Shown here: positions 11,242 to 17,101 of the stretch, piece after piece
How positions within the stretch are numbered: the first letter of the stretch is position 1
How the letters are laid out: every line of letters starts with the position of its first letter
Origin: Hyphomicrobiales bacterium
GTDB taxonomy: Bacteria; Pseudomonadota; Alphaproteobacteria; Rhizobiales; Xanthobacteraceae
NCBI GenBank assembly: GCA_016185205.1
Contig: JACPOA010000034.1
Span: 1 to 64,000, forward strand
Reading direction: 5' to 3'
Length of the DNA: 64,000 nt
Made by a program: the position numbers and the translations under genes
The notes under the pieces: model-generated
Seen by the model: the letters and a program-made list of their open reading frames with translations, nothing else
What the model was told of the DNA's origin: nothing
Database searches by the model: none

Positions 11242-11487
11242 ATGACCATCAGCGGCCGCCGCATCGTCTGGCTCAACGTCATCACCGTGATCAGCGCCGC
11301 CATTTTGATCGGCGCCGAGGTGTTCGGCGCCGCCTTCGCCGGCTCATGGGCGCTCGCCACTTTGTTCGACCTCGGCGGCATCGGACAGCGCATCCTCGAC
11401 GGCCTGTTCGTGCTCTGCGGCATCGCCATCATGGTGCAGTTCGTGCGCAACGCTCACCGCATCGAGCCGTTCACCGCGCGCGAGTGA
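11242..11487 (+). CDS. Small two-helix membrane protein
   Basis: 81-residue protein with two predicted membrane helices (WLNVITVISAAILIGAEVFG; DGLFVLCGIAIMVQFVRNA) and a charged C terminus. The ATG at 11242 follows AAGGGAGA (11229-11236) at a good distance. It is divergently arranged to the P-type ATPase and could share its control region, but no function is recognised. Confidence 0.75.
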   Translation: MTISGRRIVWLNVITVISAAILIGAEVFGAAFAGSWALATLFDLGGIGQRILDGLFVLCGIAIMVQFVRNAHRIEPFTARE

Positions 11488-11580
11488 GCGCCGAGTGCGG
11501 CGCGCGAACCGACCGTTTGCAAAAAAGTTAAGGAAGTTTTTTCGTGCAGCGAACTAATTCGCTTGCATCGCGCGAAAAAA

Positions 11581-11670
11581 ATGTTATTTCGAGTTTGCCC
11601 AATTTCGCACGTGCCTGTGGCCGTGTGTCGATCGGTAGGTAGCCGGACAAGAGGCCGGCCAGCCGCCTGA
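11581..11670 (+). CDS. Candidate leader peptide (uORF) in ornithine decarboxylase leader, copy 1
   Basis: A 29-codon frame from ATG 11581 to TGA 11668-11670 within the speF-type leader. Its C-terminal part (HVPVAVCRSVGSRTRGRPAA) is matched in the second leader by HVPVAVCRSVGIRTRGRTAA. It is basic, and its stop codon lies in the leader's structured region, which is what an arrest or attenuation peptide would look like. No good Shine-Dalgarno sequence precedes the ATG, and the two amino-acid changes are also explained by a covarying RNA stem, so coding is not proven. Confidence 0.35.
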   Translation: MLFRVCPISHVPVAVCRSVGSRTRGRPAA

Positions 11671-11868
11671 GGGAGCGAGAGCTTCTTCAAGACATCTGAT
11701 CGGCAGCCGGAGGCGAAACCGGCGCACTCTGCTCTCAGCAGGGGACGCGGCTTAAAGCAACGACGGAGCGGGCTTCTTTGGTCTCTGCTGGCATTCCACC
11801 GCCAGCGACGGGTCACCGACGAGGCTTGTCCATCTTGCCAACAGTGCGGCGGGGTCTCCCCCTCCAAG
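11604..11868 (+). ncRNA. speF-type structured leader RNA, copy 1
   Basis: About 265 bases between the small membrane protein and the first ornithine decarboxylase, closely matched by 15553-15806 upstream of the second. Conserved parts run from TTCGCACGTGCCTGTGGCC through GACAAGAGGCCGG, a GNRA-capped hairpin (GAGGGAGC-GAGA-GCTTCTTC), the hairpin GCCGG-AGGCGAAA-CCGGC, the hairpin CTCTGC-TCTCA-GCAGGG, and GGCTTAAAGCAACGACGGA. Alphaproteobacteria carry a known motif (speF leader, Rfam) before ornithine decarboxylase genes, and position and structure fit it. The motif presumably controls decarboxylase expression in response to polyamines or ornithine. Confidence 0.8.
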
Positions 11869-11953
11869 CCAAGGCAGCTATAGCGGTTAAGAGTTCACGC
11901 ATCCGGCTGCGTCCCCATCGCGCACCGGAAGCAGGCTCCTAAATCGCGAAATC

Positions 11954-11971
11954 GGACGGCTACAGCCGTCC
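11954..11971 (+). promoter_or_regulatory. Hairpin just upstream of odc1 ribosome site
   Basis: Perfect 7-bp stem with a 4-base loop (GGACGGC-TACA-GCCGTCC) ending about 10 bases before the GGGAG that precedes ATG 11994. It may be the last stem of the leader and could influence ribosome access. A comparable hairpin, GCGGC-TTTAAG-GCCGC, precedes the second decarboxylase gene at about 15897-15912. Confidence 0.5.
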
Positions 11972-11993
11972 CTTGAGCTGGGAGTGTGCGCCA

Positions 11994-13124
11994 ATGACCA
12001 CGCGCATCCGCGAATTCTTGCGCAACCGGACCGAAGACGGGCCTTGCCTGGTCGTCGACCTCGACGTCGTGCGCGACAACTACAATGCCTTCGCCAAGAC
12101 CTTGCCCGACACGCGCGTGTTCTACGCCGTGAAGGCCAACCCGGCGCCGGAGGTGCTTGCGCTTCTGGCCAAGCTCGGCTCCTGCTTCGATACCGCCTCG
12201 GTGCCTGAGATCGAGATGGTGCTCGCCGCCGGCAGCCCGCCCGACCGCATCTCCTATGGCAACACGATCAAGAAGGAACGCGACATCGCGCGCGCCTTCG
12301 CGCTCGGCGTCCGCCTCTACGCGGTCGACTGCAAGCCCGAGGTGGAGAAGGTCGCCCGCGCGGCGCCCGGCTCCAAGGTGTTCTGCCGCATCCTGTCCGA
12401 CTGCGTCGGGGCGGAATGGCCGCTGTCGCGCAAGTTCGGCTGCGAGCCGGGCATGGCCGTGGACGTGCTGGAACATGCCCTCAAGCTCGGGCTGGAACCG
12501 CATGGGGTCTCGTTCCATGTCGGCTCCCAGCAGCGTAACCAGCATGCCTGGGACCGCGCGCTCGCCTCGGCGGCCGCCGTGTTCAAGGAATGCGGCGAGC
12601 GCGGCATGAACCTCGCGATGGTCAACCTGGGCGGCGGGTTCCCGACCAAGTACCTGAAGAACGTGCCGTCGGTGAAGACCTACGGCTCGGCGATCTTCAA
12701 GGCGCTGCGCAAGCACTTCGGCAACCGCATCCCGGAAACCATCATCGAACCGGGCCGCGGCATGGTCGGCAATGCCGGCACCATCGAGGCCGAGGTCGTG
12801 CTCGTCTCCAAGAAGAGCGAAGAGGACGACGTGCGCTGGGTCTATCTCGACATCGGCAAGTTCGGCGGCCTGGCCGAGACCATGGACGAGTCGATCCGCT
12901 ATCCCGTTCGCACCCCGCGGGACGGCGATGCCATGGCGCCTTGCGTGCTGGCGGGCCCGACCTGCGATTCGATGGACGTGCTGTACGAGAAGGAGCCCTA
13001 CATGCTCCCGGTCAGCCTGGAGATCGGCGACAAGGTGCTGATCGAGGGCACCGGCGCCTATACGGCGACCTACTCGTCGGTGGCCTTCAACGGCTTCTCG
13101 CCGCTGAAGACCTACCACATCTGA
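11994..13124 (+). CDS. odc: Ornithine decarboxylase, alanine-racemase-fold (paralogue 1)
   Basis: 376-residue PLP enzyme that decarboxylates ornithine to putrescine (possibly also lysine to cadaverine). PLP lysine is K47 in YAVKANPAPE. It also has HVGSQQ, NLGGGFPTKY, the phosphate-binding EPGRGMVGNAG, and the catalytic cysteine C324 in GPTCDSMDVLYEK. This is the eukaryote-like (group IV) decarboxylase family usual in alphaproteobacteria, not the large fold-I SpeC/SpeF. ATG 11994 follows GGGAG. A long structured leader precedes it and homospermidine synthase follows downstream, so putrescine for homospermidine is the likely product. Substrate preference is inferred, not shown. Confidence 0.93.
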   Translation: MTTRIREFLRNRTEDGPCLVVDLDVVRDNYNAFAKTLPDTRVFYAVKANPAPEVLALLAKLGSCFDTASVPEIEMVLAAGSPPDRISYGNTIKKERDIARAFALGVRLYAVDCKPEVEKVARAAPGSKVFCRILSDCVGAEWPLSRKFGCEPGMAVDVLEHALKLGLEPHGVSFHVGSQQRNQHAWDRALASAAAVFKECGERGMNLAMVNLGGGFPTKYLKNVPSVKTYGSAIFKALRKHFGNRIPETIIEPGRGMVGNAGTIEAEVVLVSKKSEEDDVRWVYLDIGKFGGLAETMDESIRYPVRTPRDGDAMAPCVLAGPTCDSMDVLYEKEPYMLPVSLEIGDKVLIEGTGAYTATYSSVAFNGFSPLKTYHI

Positions 13125-13225
13125 TAACGACGGGAGGCGGGTAACCGCCTCCCCCATCCCTTCATTCGAACGGAATAGCCCGAGCGGGCGCACTTGCGCG
13201 CGCGCCGGGCGGGGATCGGCCTGAC

Positions 13226-13765
13226 ATGATCACCATTCGCAGCGAACGACATTCCGACATCCCAGCGCGCGAGGCGCTGCTCGGCGAAGCCTTCGGCGAC
13301 AGCCGCCGGCGCAAGACCTCGGAACGGCTGCGCCAAGGCCGCCTGCCGGCCGACGGCCTCGCCTTCGTCGCCGCCGACGGCAAACGCCTGGTCGGCACCG
13401 CCCGGCTGTGGAACATCGCGGTCGGCAGCGGCCAGCCGGCACTGCTGCTCGGCCCGGTGGCGGTTGTGGCCTCAAGCCGCAACCGCGGTATCGGCAGCGC
13501 TCTGGTGCGCCGCGCGGTTGCCGAGGCACGACGGCTTGGGCATGGCGCCGTCATCCTAGTTGGCGATGCGCCGTACTACAGCCGCTTCGGTTTCACGGCC
13601 GAGAAGACCGCGGCTGTGCGGCTGCCCGGTCCGTTCGAGCGCCATCGCCTGCTCGCGCTCGAGCTCGTCCCCGGCGCACTCGACGGCGCCCGCGGGCTGG
13701 TCAGCGCGACCGGACTTCCGACGCCGAAGCCGAATCGCACCGCGTCGGCGATCCGCGCCGCATAG
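13226..13765 (+). CDS. GNAT family N-acetyltransferase
   Basis: 179 residues with a GNAT fold. The acetyl-CoA binding motif is seen in VVASSRNRGIGSALVRRAVAEAR, and later APYYSRFGFTAEK is typical of the YhbS-type subgroup. The substrate is unknown. Its place between ornithine decarboxylase and homospermidine synthase makes a polyamine or an amino acid a possible acceptor, but members of this family are often in unrelated contexts. The ATG at 13226 starts directly with MITIRSERHSDIPAREALL. Confidence 0.85.
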   Translation: MITIRSERHSDIPAREALLGEAFGDSRRRKTSERLRQGRLPADGLAFVAADGKRLVGTARLWNIAVGSGQPALLLGPVAVVASSRNRGIGSALVRRAVAEARRLGHGAVILVGDAPYYSRFGFTAEKTAAVRLPGPFERHRLLALELVPGALDGARGLVSATGLPTPKPNRTASAIRAA

Positions 13766-13873
13766 CTCCGCCCAAGAATGTCGTGGACGCCGCGAACGAA
13801 TCGCGGCGGCCGCCCTTCCGTTCGCCCGCCATGGCGGATATCACCCGATGGCTCCTGGAGGCTGCGTAATAAA

Positions 13874-15307
13874 ATGACCACTTGGCCCGTTCACGCCCGT
13901 ATCGACGGGCCCATCGTGATGATCGGCTTCGGCTCGATCGGCAAAGGCACCCTGCCGCTGATCGAACGCCATTTCACCTACGACAAGAGCCGGTTCGTGG
14001 TCATCGACCCCGAGGACAAGGACCGCAAGCTCCTGGACGAGCGCGGCATCCGTTTCATCCATCAGGCCGTCACCAAGAATAACTACCGCCACCTGCTGGC
14101 CCCGCTGCTCTCCGAGGGCGGTGGACAGGGCTTCTGCGTGAACCTGTCGGTCGACACCTCCTCGCTCGACATCATGGAGCTGTGCAGCGAGATCGGAGCG
14201 CTCTACATCGACACCGTCAACGAGCCCTGGGCCGGCTTCTATTTCGACGCCAAGCTCGGTCCGGAGGCGCGCTCGAATTATGCCCTGCGCGAGGCGACCA
14301 TGGCGGCCAAGCGCAAGCGCAAGCCGGGCAGCACCACTTCGGTGTCGTGCTGCGGCGCCAATCCGGGCCTGGTATCCTGGTTCGTCAAGCAGGCGCTGCT
14401 CAATGTCGCCGGCGGCGTCGGGCTCAAGTTCAAGGAGCCGAAGACGCGCGAGGATTGGGGCCGGCTTGCCAAGAAGGCCGGCATCAAGGGCATCCATATC
14501 GCCGAGCGCGACACCCAGCGCGCCAAGCAGCCAAAGCCATTGGAAACGTTCGTCAACACCTGGTCGGTCGAGGGCTTCGTGTCGGAAGGCATGCAGCCGG
14601 CGGAACTCGGCTGGGGCACCCATGAGAAATGGATTCCGAAGAACGGCCACAAGCACAAGAAGGGCTGCCAGGCGGCGATCTATCTGAACCAGCCGGGCGC
14701 CAATACCCGCGTGCGGTCATGGACGCCGACCGCGAAAGCGCAATACGGCTTCCTGGTCACCCACAACGAATCGATCTCGATTGCCGACTACTTCACGCTG
14801 CGCAGCGGCCGCACGGCCGTGTACCGGCCGACCTGCCACTATGCCTATCACCCCTGCAACGACGCGGTGCTATCGCTGCACGAGATGTTCGGCCAGGCCG
14901 GCAAGCGCCAGCCCGCCATCCACATCTTGGATGAACACGAGATCGCCGACGGCATCGACGAACTCGGCGTGCTGCTCTACGGCCACAAAAAGAACGCCTA
15001 CTGGTACGGCTCGCAGCTCTCGGTCGACGAAACCCGCGAGATCGCGCCCTACCAGAACGCCACCGGCCTGCAGGTCACCTCCGCGGTGCTGGCCGGCATG
15101 GTGTGGGCGCTGGAGAACCCCAAGGCCGGCATCGTCGAGGCTGACGAAATGGATTTCCGCCGCTGCCTCGAGGTGCAGACGCCTTATCTCGGCCCGGTGA
15201 TCGGCGCCTACACCGACTGGACGCCGCTGACCGACCGCCCCGGCCTGTTCCCGGAAGACATCGACAAGCGCGACCCCTGGCAGTTCCGCAATGTGCTGGT
15301 GCGCTAG
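13874..15307 (+). CDS. hss: Homospermidine synthase
   Basis: 477-residue NAD-dependent enzyme that joins two putrescines (or putrescine and spermidine) to make sym-homospermidine, the typical long polyamine of this order. The N-terminal Rossmann motif is VMIGFGSIGKGTLPLIERHF. The family blocks NEPWAGFYFD, SCCGANPGLVSW, WGTHEKWIPKNGHKHKKGCQ and RPTCHYAYHPCNDAVLSLHE are all present, and the length is normal. ATG 13874 is chosen because the family starts with MTTWPVHARIDGPIVMIGFG; GGAGG lies 14 bases upstream, somewhat far. It is flanked by the two ornithine decarboxylase genes. Confidence 0.95.
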   Translation: MTTWPVHARIDGPIVMIGFGSIGKGTLPLIERHFTYDKSRFVVIDPEDKDRKLLDERGIRFIHQAVTKNNYRHLLAPLLSEGGGQGFCVNLSVDTSSLDIMELCSEIGALYIDTVNEPWAGFYFDAKLGPEARSNYALREATMAAKRKRKPGSTTSVSCCGANPGLVSWFVKQALLNVAGGVGLKFKEPKTREDWGRLAKKAGIKGIHIAERDTQRAKQPKPLETFVNTWSVEGFVSEGMQPAELGWGTHEKWIPKNGHKHKKGCQAAIYLNQPGANTRVRSWTPTAKAQYGFLVTHNESISIADYFTLRSGRTAVYRPTCHYAYHPCNDAVLSLHEMFGQAGKRQPAIHILDEHEIADGIDELGVLLYGHKKNAYWYGSQLSVDETREIAPYQNATGLQVTSAVLAGMVWALENPKAGIVEADEMDFRRCLEVQTPYLGPVIGAYTDWTPLTDRPGLFPEDIDKRDPWQFRNVLVR

Positions 15308-15397
15308 CGCATGATCCCGAAAAGTGGGAGCCGGTTTCCCGCCTTCGCGAAGCCCGCTTTGGCGGGCGAAGGAAGGTCGGATAAGATCATGCGCAAA
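15303..15397. repeat. Palindromic repeat, GCGCATGATC...GATCATGCGC type
   Basis: Outer inverted ends GCGCATGATC (from 15307) and GATCATGCGC (to 15396) enclose CCCGAAAAGTGGGAGCCGGTTT and an inner hairpin built on GCCTTCGC/GCGAAGG. It starts exactly at the hss stop codon, so it may also terminate that transcript. A partial relative is at about 56402-56458. Confidence 0.75.
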
Positions 15398-15526
15398 TAA
15401 GAAGCCGCTCGGCTCTGCAAAATACAGAATCGAATCTCCGAAAGAGAAAAGTTAACGCGTTGCGCATTCACCACGCGGTGGATGAGAGTGCGCACGCTTG
15501 CGAAAAATTATTGACTCTCGTCGCAG

Positions 15527-15619
15527 TTGGATTATTCCGGTCAGTGCCCTTTTTCGCACGTGCCTGTGGCCGTGTGTCGGTCGGTAGGTATCCGGACAAG
15601 AGGCCGGACAGCCGCCTGA
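15527..15619 (+). CDS. Candidate leader peptide (uORF) in ornithine decarboxylase leader, copy 2
   Basis: Reading frame aligned with the uORF in the first leader. A TTG at 15527 or a GTG at 15560 could start it and the TGA is at 15617-15619. The conserved part is CPFSHVPVAVCRSVG followed by an arginine-rich end. No ATG is in frame here, which weakens the case. It is recorded because the frame is open in both leaders and ends at the same TGA. Confidence 0.25.
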   Translation: MDYSGQCPFSHVPVAVCRSVGIRTRGRTAA

Positions 15620-15806
15620 GGAAGCGAAAGCCTCCTCAAGAAATCTGACCGGCAGCCGGAGGCGAAACCGGCGCACTCTGCTCTCCGCAGAGGACGCGGC
15701 TTAAAGCAACGACGGATCGGGCTTTTTTGGGTTACCGGCGCGTTATGCCGGATGTCCGAAGAGGCTTGTCCTTCTTGCCGAGGCGCGGAGCGGGGCTTCC
15801 CCAATC
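15553..15806 (+). ncRNA. speF-type structured leader RNA, copy 2
   Basis: Second copy of the leader described at 11604-11868, in front of the second ornithine decarboxylase gene. Compared with copy 1, the stem around GACAAGAG changes from GCCGG...CCGGC to TCCGG...CCGGA. This is a compensated G-C to T-A change that supports the stem. The next hairpin keeps a GNRA loop (GAAA here, GAGA there). The hairpin CTCTGC-TCTCC-GCAGAG changes one G-U pair to A-U. A TTGACT at 15511-15516, about 40 bases upstream, may be part of the promoter. Confidence 0.8.
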
Positions 15807-15934
15807 CAGACCATGGCAGCAGACGGTTACAGTCGGCGGCAAACGGCGGCGTCATTCGCTGTCCCGCTTGGCTGCAACCATTGATGCTTTGACTCAGCGG
15901 CTTTAAGGCCGCCGACCGAGGGGAAAAATGAGCG

Positions 15935-17101
15935 ATGACCGATCGCATCCGCGAGTTCCTTAAGAACCGCAAAGAAGATGGGCCCTGCCTGGTGCTCGAT
16001 CTCGACGTCGTGCGCGACAACTACGCTGGCTTCGCCAAGGTGCTGCCCGACACCAAGGTCTATTACGCGGTCAAGGCCAACCCGCATCCGGAAATCCTGA
16101 GCCTGCTGAACCGGCTCGGCTCGTGCTTCGACGTCGCCTCGGTGCAGGAGACGTTAGCCGTGCTCGCCGCCGGTGCTACGCCGGACCGCATCTCCTACGG
16201 CAACACCATCAAGAAAGAGAGCGAGATCGCCACCGCCTTCAAGCTGGGCGTCAGCCTGTTCGCGGTCGACTGCGAGGCCGAGGTCGACAAGGTCGCCCGC
16301 GCTGCCCCCGGCGCCCGCGTGATCTGCCGAATCACCTGCGACGGCACCGGCGCCGAATGGCCGCTGTCGCGCAAGTTCGGCTGCGAACCGGAATTCGCCG
16401 TCGACATCCTGGAGCGCGCCCATAAGCAGGGCCTGATTGCCCACGGCATTTCGTTCCATGTCGGCTCGCAGCAGCACAATGTGGAAGCCTGGGACCGCGC
16501 GCTGGCTTCGGCCGCCGCGATCTTCCGCGGCTGCGCCGAGCGCGGCATGGCCCTCTCCACGGTCAATCTCGGCGGCGGTTTCCCGGCCAAATATGTGCGC
16601 AAGACGCCGAAGCTTGAATCCTACGGCAAGGCGATCTTCCGCTCGCTGCGCCGCCATTTCGGTAACCGCATCCCGGAGACCTTCGTCGAGCCCGGCCGCG
16701 GCATGGTCGGCAATGCCGGCGTGATTGAGGCCGAGGTGGTGCTGATCGCCAAGCGCAGCCCGGAGGACGACACCCGCTGGGTCTATCTCGATATCGGCAA
16801 GTTCCATGGGCTGGCGGAGACGATCGGCGAATCGATTCGCTATCCGATCCGCACCCGCCGTGACCGCGACGAGACCGGGCCCTGCATCGTGGCCGGACCC
16901 ACCTGCGATTCGGTCGACGTGCTGTACGAGAAGACGCCCTACCCGCTGCCGGTCACCCTCGCCATTGGCGACAAGGTGCTGATCGAAGCGGCCGGCGCCT
17001 ATACCTCGACCTATTCCTCGGTCGGCTTCAACGGCTATCCGCCCTTGAAGTCTTATGTGATCGGACTGACGGAGCCGGTCGCGGTGGCGGTGGCGGCCTA
17101 G
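15935..17101 (+). CDS. odc: Ornithine decarboxylase, alanine-racemase-fold (paralogue 2)
   Basis: 388 residues, paralogue of the gene at 11994 with the same landmarks: K47 in YYAVKANPHPE, HVGSQQHN, NLGGGFPAKY, EPGRGMVGNAG and C324 in GPTCDSVDVLYEK. It has a slightly longer C terminus (IGLTEPVAVAVAA). ATG 15935 follows GAGGGGAAAA; an out-of-frame ATG at 15928 is ignored. Both paralogues keep all catalytic residues and both have a leader RNA, so the pair may differ in substrate (ornithine versus lysine) or in regulation. Confidence 0.93.
   Translation: MTDRIREFLKNRKEDGPCLVLDLDVVRDNYAGFAKVLPDTKVYYAVKANPHPEILSLLNRLGSCFDVASVQETLAVLAAGATPDRISYGNTIKKESEIATAFKLGVSLFAVDCEAEVDKVARAAPGARVICRITCDGTGAEWPLSRKFGCEPEFAVDILERAHKQGLIAHGISFHVGSQQHNVEAWDRALASAAAIFRGCAERGMALSTVNLGGGFPAKYVRKTPKLESYGKAIFRSLRRHFGNRIPETFVEPGRGMVGNAGVIEAEVVLIAKRSPEDDTRWVYLDIGKFHGLAETIGESIRYPIRTRRDRDETGPCIVAGPTCDSVDVLYEKTPYPLPVTLAIGDKVLIEAAGAYTSTYSSVGFNGYPPLKSYVIGLTEPVAVAVAA

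Follow-up and report, generated by a model that had tools for sequence, protein, structure and literature searches.

What precedes the two ornithine decarboxylase (ODC) genes of a Hyphomicrobiales bacterium (contig JACPOA010000034.1, of which the first 64,000 nucleotides are the window analysed here), and are the two Rfam families found there, ar45 (RF02347) and speF (RF00518), separate RNAs or parts of a single one? A sequence-only reading of this DNA had proposed paralogous structured leaders of the speF type ahead of both genes, with ligand and mechanism not settled, and the latter agrees with published passages, which describe the function of ar45 and speF as unclear (PMC7717549, PMC12403871). 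Here, a comparison of the two copies with each other and with their relatives suggests that what Rfam holds as two RNAs is one switch-like leader. New in this study is an alternative, predicted from folding models, between the helix that closes ar45 (P1) and a helix (P6) formed by the uridine-rich run at the ar45 end (U-run) and the conserved speF sequence GAAGAGGC. We give roughly even chances to the reading that the ODC leader known from Alphaproteobacteria is present here in two copies and would work as an attenuator, yielding either a short U-tailed ar45 RNA or the ODC mRNA.

At gathering thresholds, an Rfam search of the window returned ar45 twice, speF once (copy 1), and one tRNA elsewhere; the speF match of copy 2 came from a permissive search. 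The speF cut-off of 37 bits was reached by copy 1 (41.2) and missed by copy 2 (23.8), and in each copy an ODC-type gene lies downstream. The speF assignment, for which the sequence-only reading had proposed a run of the Rfam model, is therefore borne out for copy 1, falls below threshold for copy 2, and had been argued from stems that all lie in ar45. The speF model starts 8 nt after the end of ar45 in copy 1 and 6 nt after it in copy 2. From the ar45 start to the ATG, the leaders measure 397 nt (11597-11993) and 389 nt (15546-15934), and not about 260 bases as had been claimed. The ar45 family, reportedly defined in del Val 2012, comprises Smr45C/SmrC45/SmelC706 of S. meliloti and Bbar45 of Bartonella, and is typed by Rfam as a small RNA (sRNA) gene. 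Both window copies match the full model above threshold and share its closing stem and U-rich end, but they span 181 nt over a 148-position model because their multibranched insertion is longer. Unlike the Rfam type, ar45 was the first part of an ODC leader wherever the downstream sequence sufficed.

The two copies are 92% identical over a gap-free block of 186 nt (11596-11781 against 15545-15730; 15 bases differ). This block coincides with ar45 and its U-run, and the remaining downstream leader is 60% identical. Single-sequence folds gave a near-identical multibranched structure for both copies (z -2.33 and -2.63). Of the 15 differences, four make up two pairs compensated in full, three are one-sided with pairing kept, three break a pair, and five are unpaired. 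One compensation, G11642-C11659 to U-A, is the GCCGG/CCGGC versus TCCGG/CCGGA change already recognized from the sequence; the other, A11631-U11700 to G-C, had been overlooked. The one-sided changes include the G-U to A-U replacement described earlier for a third stem, which we located at 11673/11684. The GAGA/GAAA loop change of the GNRA hairpin (11677-11680), as the sequence-only reading had seen it, is among the unpaired differences. The broken pairs, which that reading did not mention, are all in copy 2: U-C at 11733/11737, U-U at 11603/11768, and A-C at 11674/11683, the last within the GNRA hairpin. When 15 substitutions of this spectrum were placed at random 100,000 times, at least two compensated pairs arose in 0.4% of the placements and at most three broken pairs in 2.6%, a somewhat lenient test, as the structure itself was derived from the two sequences tested.

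The relatives add to this picture. In an alignment of 13 genus sequences (12 distinct), 15 pairs changed on both sides, compared with 8.9 after shuffling and at most 5 when the pairing was slid; in a second alignment of 27 sequences (26 distinct), which spans other families of the order and omits the GNRA hairpin, 20 pairs did so, compared with 11.1 and at most 10. A third alignment was excluded from the pair counts because its P7 columns (the speF hairpin) were out of register. A measure of further pair types revealed no excess over shuffles in either of the two alignments used. On a tree of 165 tips built from the ODC coding sequence, both partners changed with pairing kept on 26 branches in the upper stem, P2; the 18 slid controls gave 1 in all. 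Tested pair by pair against a branch-permutation null, P2 shows a clear excess at pair 7 (0 of 2000), a weak one at pairs 5 and 6 (50 and 74 of 2000), and none at pairs 3, 4, and 8 (150-379 of 2000); there is little variation at pair 2, and at pair 1 the co-changes fail to preserve pairing. Among 26 distinct sequences, the outer pair of P1 is G-C in 25; in the remaining one, L093, it is A-U. The junction-hairpin pair 11642/11659 is G-C in 8, U-A in 3, and unpaired in 1 of the 12 distinct genus sequences. For P7, a local hairpin of at least four pairs is present in 197/198 leaders with 60 different 5-pair stems, and its loop contains TCCA in 184. The RNA structure of the leaders is thus supported, at the level of sequence comparison, by both copies and by relatives, and the proposal of structured leaders ahead of both ODC genes is real and stronger than first stated.

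To what extent do ar45 and speF belong together? In a class sample of 289 genomes, ar45 and speF each matched 13 at E 0.001 (above the cut-offs, 12 and 11), with both present in 12; in these 12 the gap between the models, read by eye and with the window genome counted by its first copy, is 7-9 nt and exactly 8 in 10. In an order sample of 347 genomes, ar45 was found in 159, speF in 189, and both in 157. True losses of ar45 in the speF-only genomes were not supported in the 10 of 32 that were inspected: all ten have both ar45 arms, with insertions of about 160-224 nt between them, and at least part of the ar45 shortfall is therefore a detection problem. In a permissive ar45 scan, five of these ten scored above threshold, three below, and two gave no match. 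The loci with long insertions (L099-L107 and L025) were missed by ar45 in the order scan and had a low score or none in half of the cases; the Rfam ar45 model could be rebuilt around its two arms.

The association was also found from the other direction. A pattern holding only the ar45 3' arm and the U-run was scanned over public genomes, and among the 80 listed of at least 119 matching stretches, a speF-type motif lies downstream in 77 (the other three have at most 45 nt there) and the ar45 5' arm upstream in 77 (the other three have 33-211 nt there). In all, 224 sources gave 214 parsed leaders (10 were missed), 202 of them distinct and 198 with both P6 anchors, the anchor on the purine strand (the P6 3' strand) tolerating two substitutions; in the 119 sources drawn by the pattern scan, the U-run and the 3' arm are present by construction. 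A same-strand ODC homologue (E < 1e-8) follows 187/187 distinct parsed leaders with at least 700 nt of downstream sequence. A weak ar45 match of 29.5 bits (L015, genome G217) could not be parsed, lies in a genome without a speF match, and was taken as chance. Together, the co-occurrence and the constant position before ODC indicate that the two families behave as one leader. Their adjacency is already in print (PMC7717549), and the "extended speF element" of Corbino 2005 covers both parts by its description (PMC1273637). The window leaders resemble RF00518 as described there in lying upstream of ODC and, for copy 1, in scoring above threshold; they differ in the divergent copy 2 and in the P1/P6 alternative, of which the accessible passages of that paper make no mention.

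These data bear on a rival explanation, in which ar45 acts in trans as an Hfq-dependent sRNA, begins and ends at a promoter and a terminator of its own, and adjoins an independent speF-ODC unit by mere synteny. The Rfam type fits such a role, SmrC45 is bound by Hfq and co-precipitates with it (PMC2848018), and for Bartonella, independent expression has been reported and a role in trans suggested (PMC7717549). We nevertheless consider it unlikely, given the near-fixed spacing of ar45 and speF, the ODC homologue after every leader with enough sequence, the pairing of the U-run with speF in P6, and an ar45 insertion whose length and sequence change from genus to genus, as would not be expected of a conserved targeting seed. 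The short ar45 by-product could, however, act in trans as well.

The upstream sequences are consistent with transcription starting at ar45. In 177/197 leaders, CTTG occurs at -48 to -26 relative to the leader start (in 168 at -36 or -37), compared with 11/197 for shuffled upstream stretches; a strict sigma-70 scan of 11480-15960 returned no site. CTTG-type boxes recall the RpoH promoters of Alphaproteobacteria. From its sequence, the box of copy 1 (11562-11565) looks RpoH-type, hinting at heat or stress control, and copy 2 has ATTG instead. A review table lists RpoH1/2 for SmelC706 (PMC7143759).

In short-form folds of both copies, P1 pairs GCCC at the ar45 start with GGGC directly before the U-run, and in full-leader folds of both, P6 pairs the U-run with the conserved speF CUGAAGAGGC around the speF hairpin. 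P6 pairing was kept in 98.4% of cells over 198 leaders, with at least 9/10 pairs in 195, compared with at most 66.5% when slid, a figure that is partly by construction owing to the pattern-drawn sources. Among the 98 leaders drawn otherwise, of which 97 were anchored, the U-run has at least 4 T of 8 in 97 and P6 at least 9/10 pairs in 95. The two strands also change together: each is one base shorter in L058/L059, and a G-C pair becomes U-A in L004/L094. P1 complementarity in 196/196 leaders, for which several offsets were searched and wobble was allowed, was set aside as evidence. For 196 leaders, predicted ensembles gave P1 a mean probability of 0.93 in the short form and 0.01 in the extended form, in which P6 reached 0.95. 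For a control with shuffled tails, 70 leaders were taken from the 97 that were anchored and had not come from the pattern scan, and the U-run was paired above 0.8 in 64/70 real tails and 12/140 shuffled ones. P1 and P6 are thus predicted to exclude each other. A further long-range pairing, ar45 CGCAC with speF GUGCG, had been suggested by a co-change in L077/L078 and was dropped because CGCAC remains unchanged where its partner reads GCGCG or GUGAG (window copy 2, G632, G640, G641, G639, L010, L013, and L014). Mostly outside subscription journals, a literature search of accessible text found no P1/P6 proposal and no demonstrated function for ar45 or speF.

How might such an alternative work? 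Transcription would begin at GCCC, and the RNA would fold into the multibranched ar45 domain, with P1 closing right before the U-run. Part of the polymerases would halt at the U-run and free a short, U-tailed ar45 RNA; those that read through would make the speF part, in which GAAGAGGC would pair with the U-run and open P1, the transcript running on into the ODC message. How often each outcome occurs would set ODC output, presumably through the polyamine state or a protein. Short and long transcripts have both been published: a 148-nt RNA at this locus in S. meliloti (PMC2873474; table of PMC7143759), where the 5' end of SmrC45 was mapped and its end assigned to the U-run (PMC2780559), a separate Bbar45 RNA and a BbspeF RNA of more than 700 bases in Bartonella (PMC7717549), and an ar45 transcription unit in Methylosinus (PMC12403871). 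In combination with the P1/P6 alternative, they fit premature termination versus read-through. For this organism, we infer termination as the source of the short RNA, as well as a regulated choice and its trigger.

Several observations weigh against this attenuator. A consensus scan found no local terminator-like hairpin before either U-run, only the long-range P1; of the canonical terminator, the U-run is present and the hairpin is lacking. With only 4 bp closing a fold of about 180 nt, P1 is not what one would expect of a terminator. The polymerase makes P6 only once it has passed the stop point, so P6 cannot keep it from terminating there; formed after the decision, P6 would rather fix the choice of read-through, cover the U-run, or release other leader segments. 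P6 is itself imperfect: it has a U-C mismatch in copy 1, its pair 10 is U-C in 3/198 leaders, and a few leaders have other mismatches. In the extended form, P2 falls from 0.82 to 0.66 on average, and from 0.99 to 0.02 in window copy 1; the predicted refolding thus reaches beyond P1/P6. P1 was below 0.1 in 70/70 real tails but also in 91/140 shuffled ones; its loss is therefore only partly specific, whereas U-run pairing is specific. Finally, SmrC45 was first sized at 181 nt, not 148 (PMC2780559), and six metabolites gave no change in the A. tumefaciens RNA (Corbino 2005, PMC1273637).

Cleavage of the full leader, with RNase III cutting at P6/P7 as one example, could instead yield the short RNA, and full-leader folds do place P6 and P7 as an extended hairpin around the ar45 3' end. 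However, the end of SmrC45 was assigned to the U-run, from its 5' end and size without direct 3' mapping (PMC2780559), and a second paper gives 148 nt, the length of the Rfam model (PMC2873474); cleavage seems to us an improbable source. Alternatively, the leader could be sensed through ribosomes translating an upstream open reading frame. In gammaproteobacteria, the speF leader of Salmonella reportedly works through a leader peptide. The leaders studied here resemble it in preceding an ODC gene, which the Salmonella leader controls (PMC6386406), but no conserved leader peptide was found in 93 leaders of the ar45-speF kind. Although GAAGAGGC resembles a ribosome-binding site, with TTG about 10 nt later and open frames of 35 and 43 codons in the window copies, the frame from TTGCC ends anywhere from 3 to more than 200 codons across these 93 leaders, with out-of-frame indels and unconserved stops, and P6 already explains GAAGAGGC. 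We rejected this frame, and sensing by ribosomes on it is hardly credible.

Direct binding of a polyamine or a precursor by the ar45 domain, as in a riboswitch, has to our mind a small chance, similar to that of the trans-acting sRNA. The internal-loop sequences are nearly invariant (CGCACGUGCC; AAGCAACGAC), and homospermidine would be the obvious candidate ligand, as a homospermidine synthase gene (HSS) sits between the two ODC genes and this compound is absent from the list given in the accessible passages of Corbino 2005 (PMC1273637). Of the 347 order genomes, 182 have both the leader and HSS (E <= 1e-40), 9 the leader only, 15 HSS only, and 141 neither; HSS is thus present in 182/191 leader genomes (Fisher p 5e-67, confounded by descent). 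This association is, however, confounded by phylogeny and by the shared pathway, and nine leader genomes do without HSS. Three of the nine have weak speF matches only, but G433 and G625, with genomes of 1.5-1.6 Mb, come first and eighth when ordered by speF score. The leader thus cannot depend on HSS-made homospermidine in every genome.

How did one genome come to hold two copies? The leader precedes ODC1 in 10/10 genus relatives for which the ODC1 stretch was retrieved, and the order leader-ODC1-GNAT-HSS is kept in 8. A DNA search with the window ar45 found it in 10/11 genus relatives, with a second copy in G636 only, before an ODC2; this survey was keyed on ar45, with no search for second ODC genes lacking such a leader. 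What looked like two loci, G636b and G636c, is a single one that the assembly had split, as their exact overlap shows. In a tree of 38 rows, the window ODC2 groups with that of G636 (support 100/99), and this group falls outside the clade (97/80) holding ODC1 and the Bradyrhizobium-type ODCs. The ar45 part of window copy 2 is 92% identical to window copy 1 and to the ODC1-type ar45 of G636, but 83% to its G636 ODC2 counterpart, whereas its downstream leader is closest to that counterpart (71% versus 60% and 64%). The two copies did not arise by simple duplication: ODC2 is an older lineage, and its ar45 looks gene-converted from an ODC1-type leader. Exchange of the ar45 part between leaders of this lineage would account for this most simply, a reading that depends on a single quartet. 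"Paralogous" therefore suits the ODC genes but not the ar45 part of copy 2, which is ODC1-type and apparently exchanged, and for that reason the near-identity of the copies does not date the duplication.

The features of the locus are collected in Table 1; a GNAT gene and HSS are flanked by the two ODC genes. The GNAT gene (13226-13765) may encode a polyamine acetyltransferase. In the full fold of leader 1, ar45 GGCGCACUCUGCUC (11721-11734) is paired with the ODC1 ribosome-binding region GAGCUGGGAGUGUGCGCC (11975-11992); leader 2 has no such GAGCUGGGAGUGUGCGCC sequence ahead of ODC2. An inverted repeat CGCGAAGCCCGCTTTGGCGGGCGA at 15346-15369, 3' of HSS, gave a sub-threshold CRISPR-DR28 match and is more likely a hairpin repeat or terminator than a CRISPR repeat.

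Table 1. Genes and leader elements of the ODC region, in window coordinates
Feature	Coordinates	Strand	Basis
Leader 1 promoter-like boxes, CTTGCA 11562-11567 and TATTTC 11585-11590	11562..11590	+	sequence
Leader 1 ar45 domain (RF02347)	11597..11777	+	54.4 bits, threshold 40; covariation
Leader 1 P1 5' strand GCCC, first bases of the ar45 match	11597..11600	+	pairs with GGGC 11770-11773 (fold)
Leader 1 junction hairpin with compensated pair G11642-C11659	11642..11659	+	copy comparison, genus alignment
Leader 1 GNRA-loop hairpin, loop GAGA 11677-11680	11668..11689	+	fold; strongly variable within genus
Leader 1 U-rich run UUCUUU and GG after P1	11774..11781	+	with 11772-11773, forms P6 5' strand
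Leader 1 speF domain (RF00518)	11786..11943	+	41.2 bits, threshold 37
Leader 1 speF hairpin P7, UUCCA in loop	11787..11806	+	local hairpin across leaders
Leader 1 P6 3' strand CCGACGAGGC (consensus CUGAAGAGGC)	11816..11825	+	9/10 pairs, one U-C mismatch
ODC1, ornithine decarboxylase 1	11994..13124	+	Pfam PF02784/PF00278; best PDB matches lysine/ornithine decarboxylases
GNAT acetyltransferase between ODC1 and HSS	13226..13765	+	PF00583
HSS, homospermidine synthase	13874..15307	+	phmmer 8.7e-260 to PDB 4plp homospermidine synthase
Leader 2 promoter-like boxes, ATTGACT 15510-15516 and TATTCC 15533-15538	15510..15538	+	sequence
Leader 2 ar45 domain (RF02347)	15546..15726	+	52.4 bits
Leader 2 U-run UUUUUU and GG	15723..15730	+	with 15721-15722, forms P6 5' strand
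Leader 2 speF domain, divergent	15733..15893	+	23.8 bits, below threshold 37; E 0.0044 in 4.5-kb search
Leader 2 P6 3' strand CCGAAGAGGC	15756..15765	+	10/10 pairs (fold)
ODC2, ornithine decarboxylase 2	15935..17101	+	PF02784/PF00278; 73% amino acid identity to ODC1

Beyond this genome, one could imagine a bolder and more doubtful version of the attenuator, to which we hold only tentatively. One two-state ar45-speF switch in many Rhizobiales and some other Alphaproteobacteria would either release a stable Hfq-binding sRNA or make the ODC mRNA, and its long-range terminator would be the entire 5' end. In this genome the switch would be present twice, with the ar45 parts kept alike by gene conversion, hinting at a role in trans too. 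From a biological perspective, treating ar45 and speF as one leader may explain why an "independent" sRNA is seen with one probe and an ODC leader with another, and it names homospermidine as a candidate ligand. A single leader with a defined P1/P6 alternative turns the old ar45/speF puzzle into simple mutational tests, for which this genome offers two natural variants of the leader.

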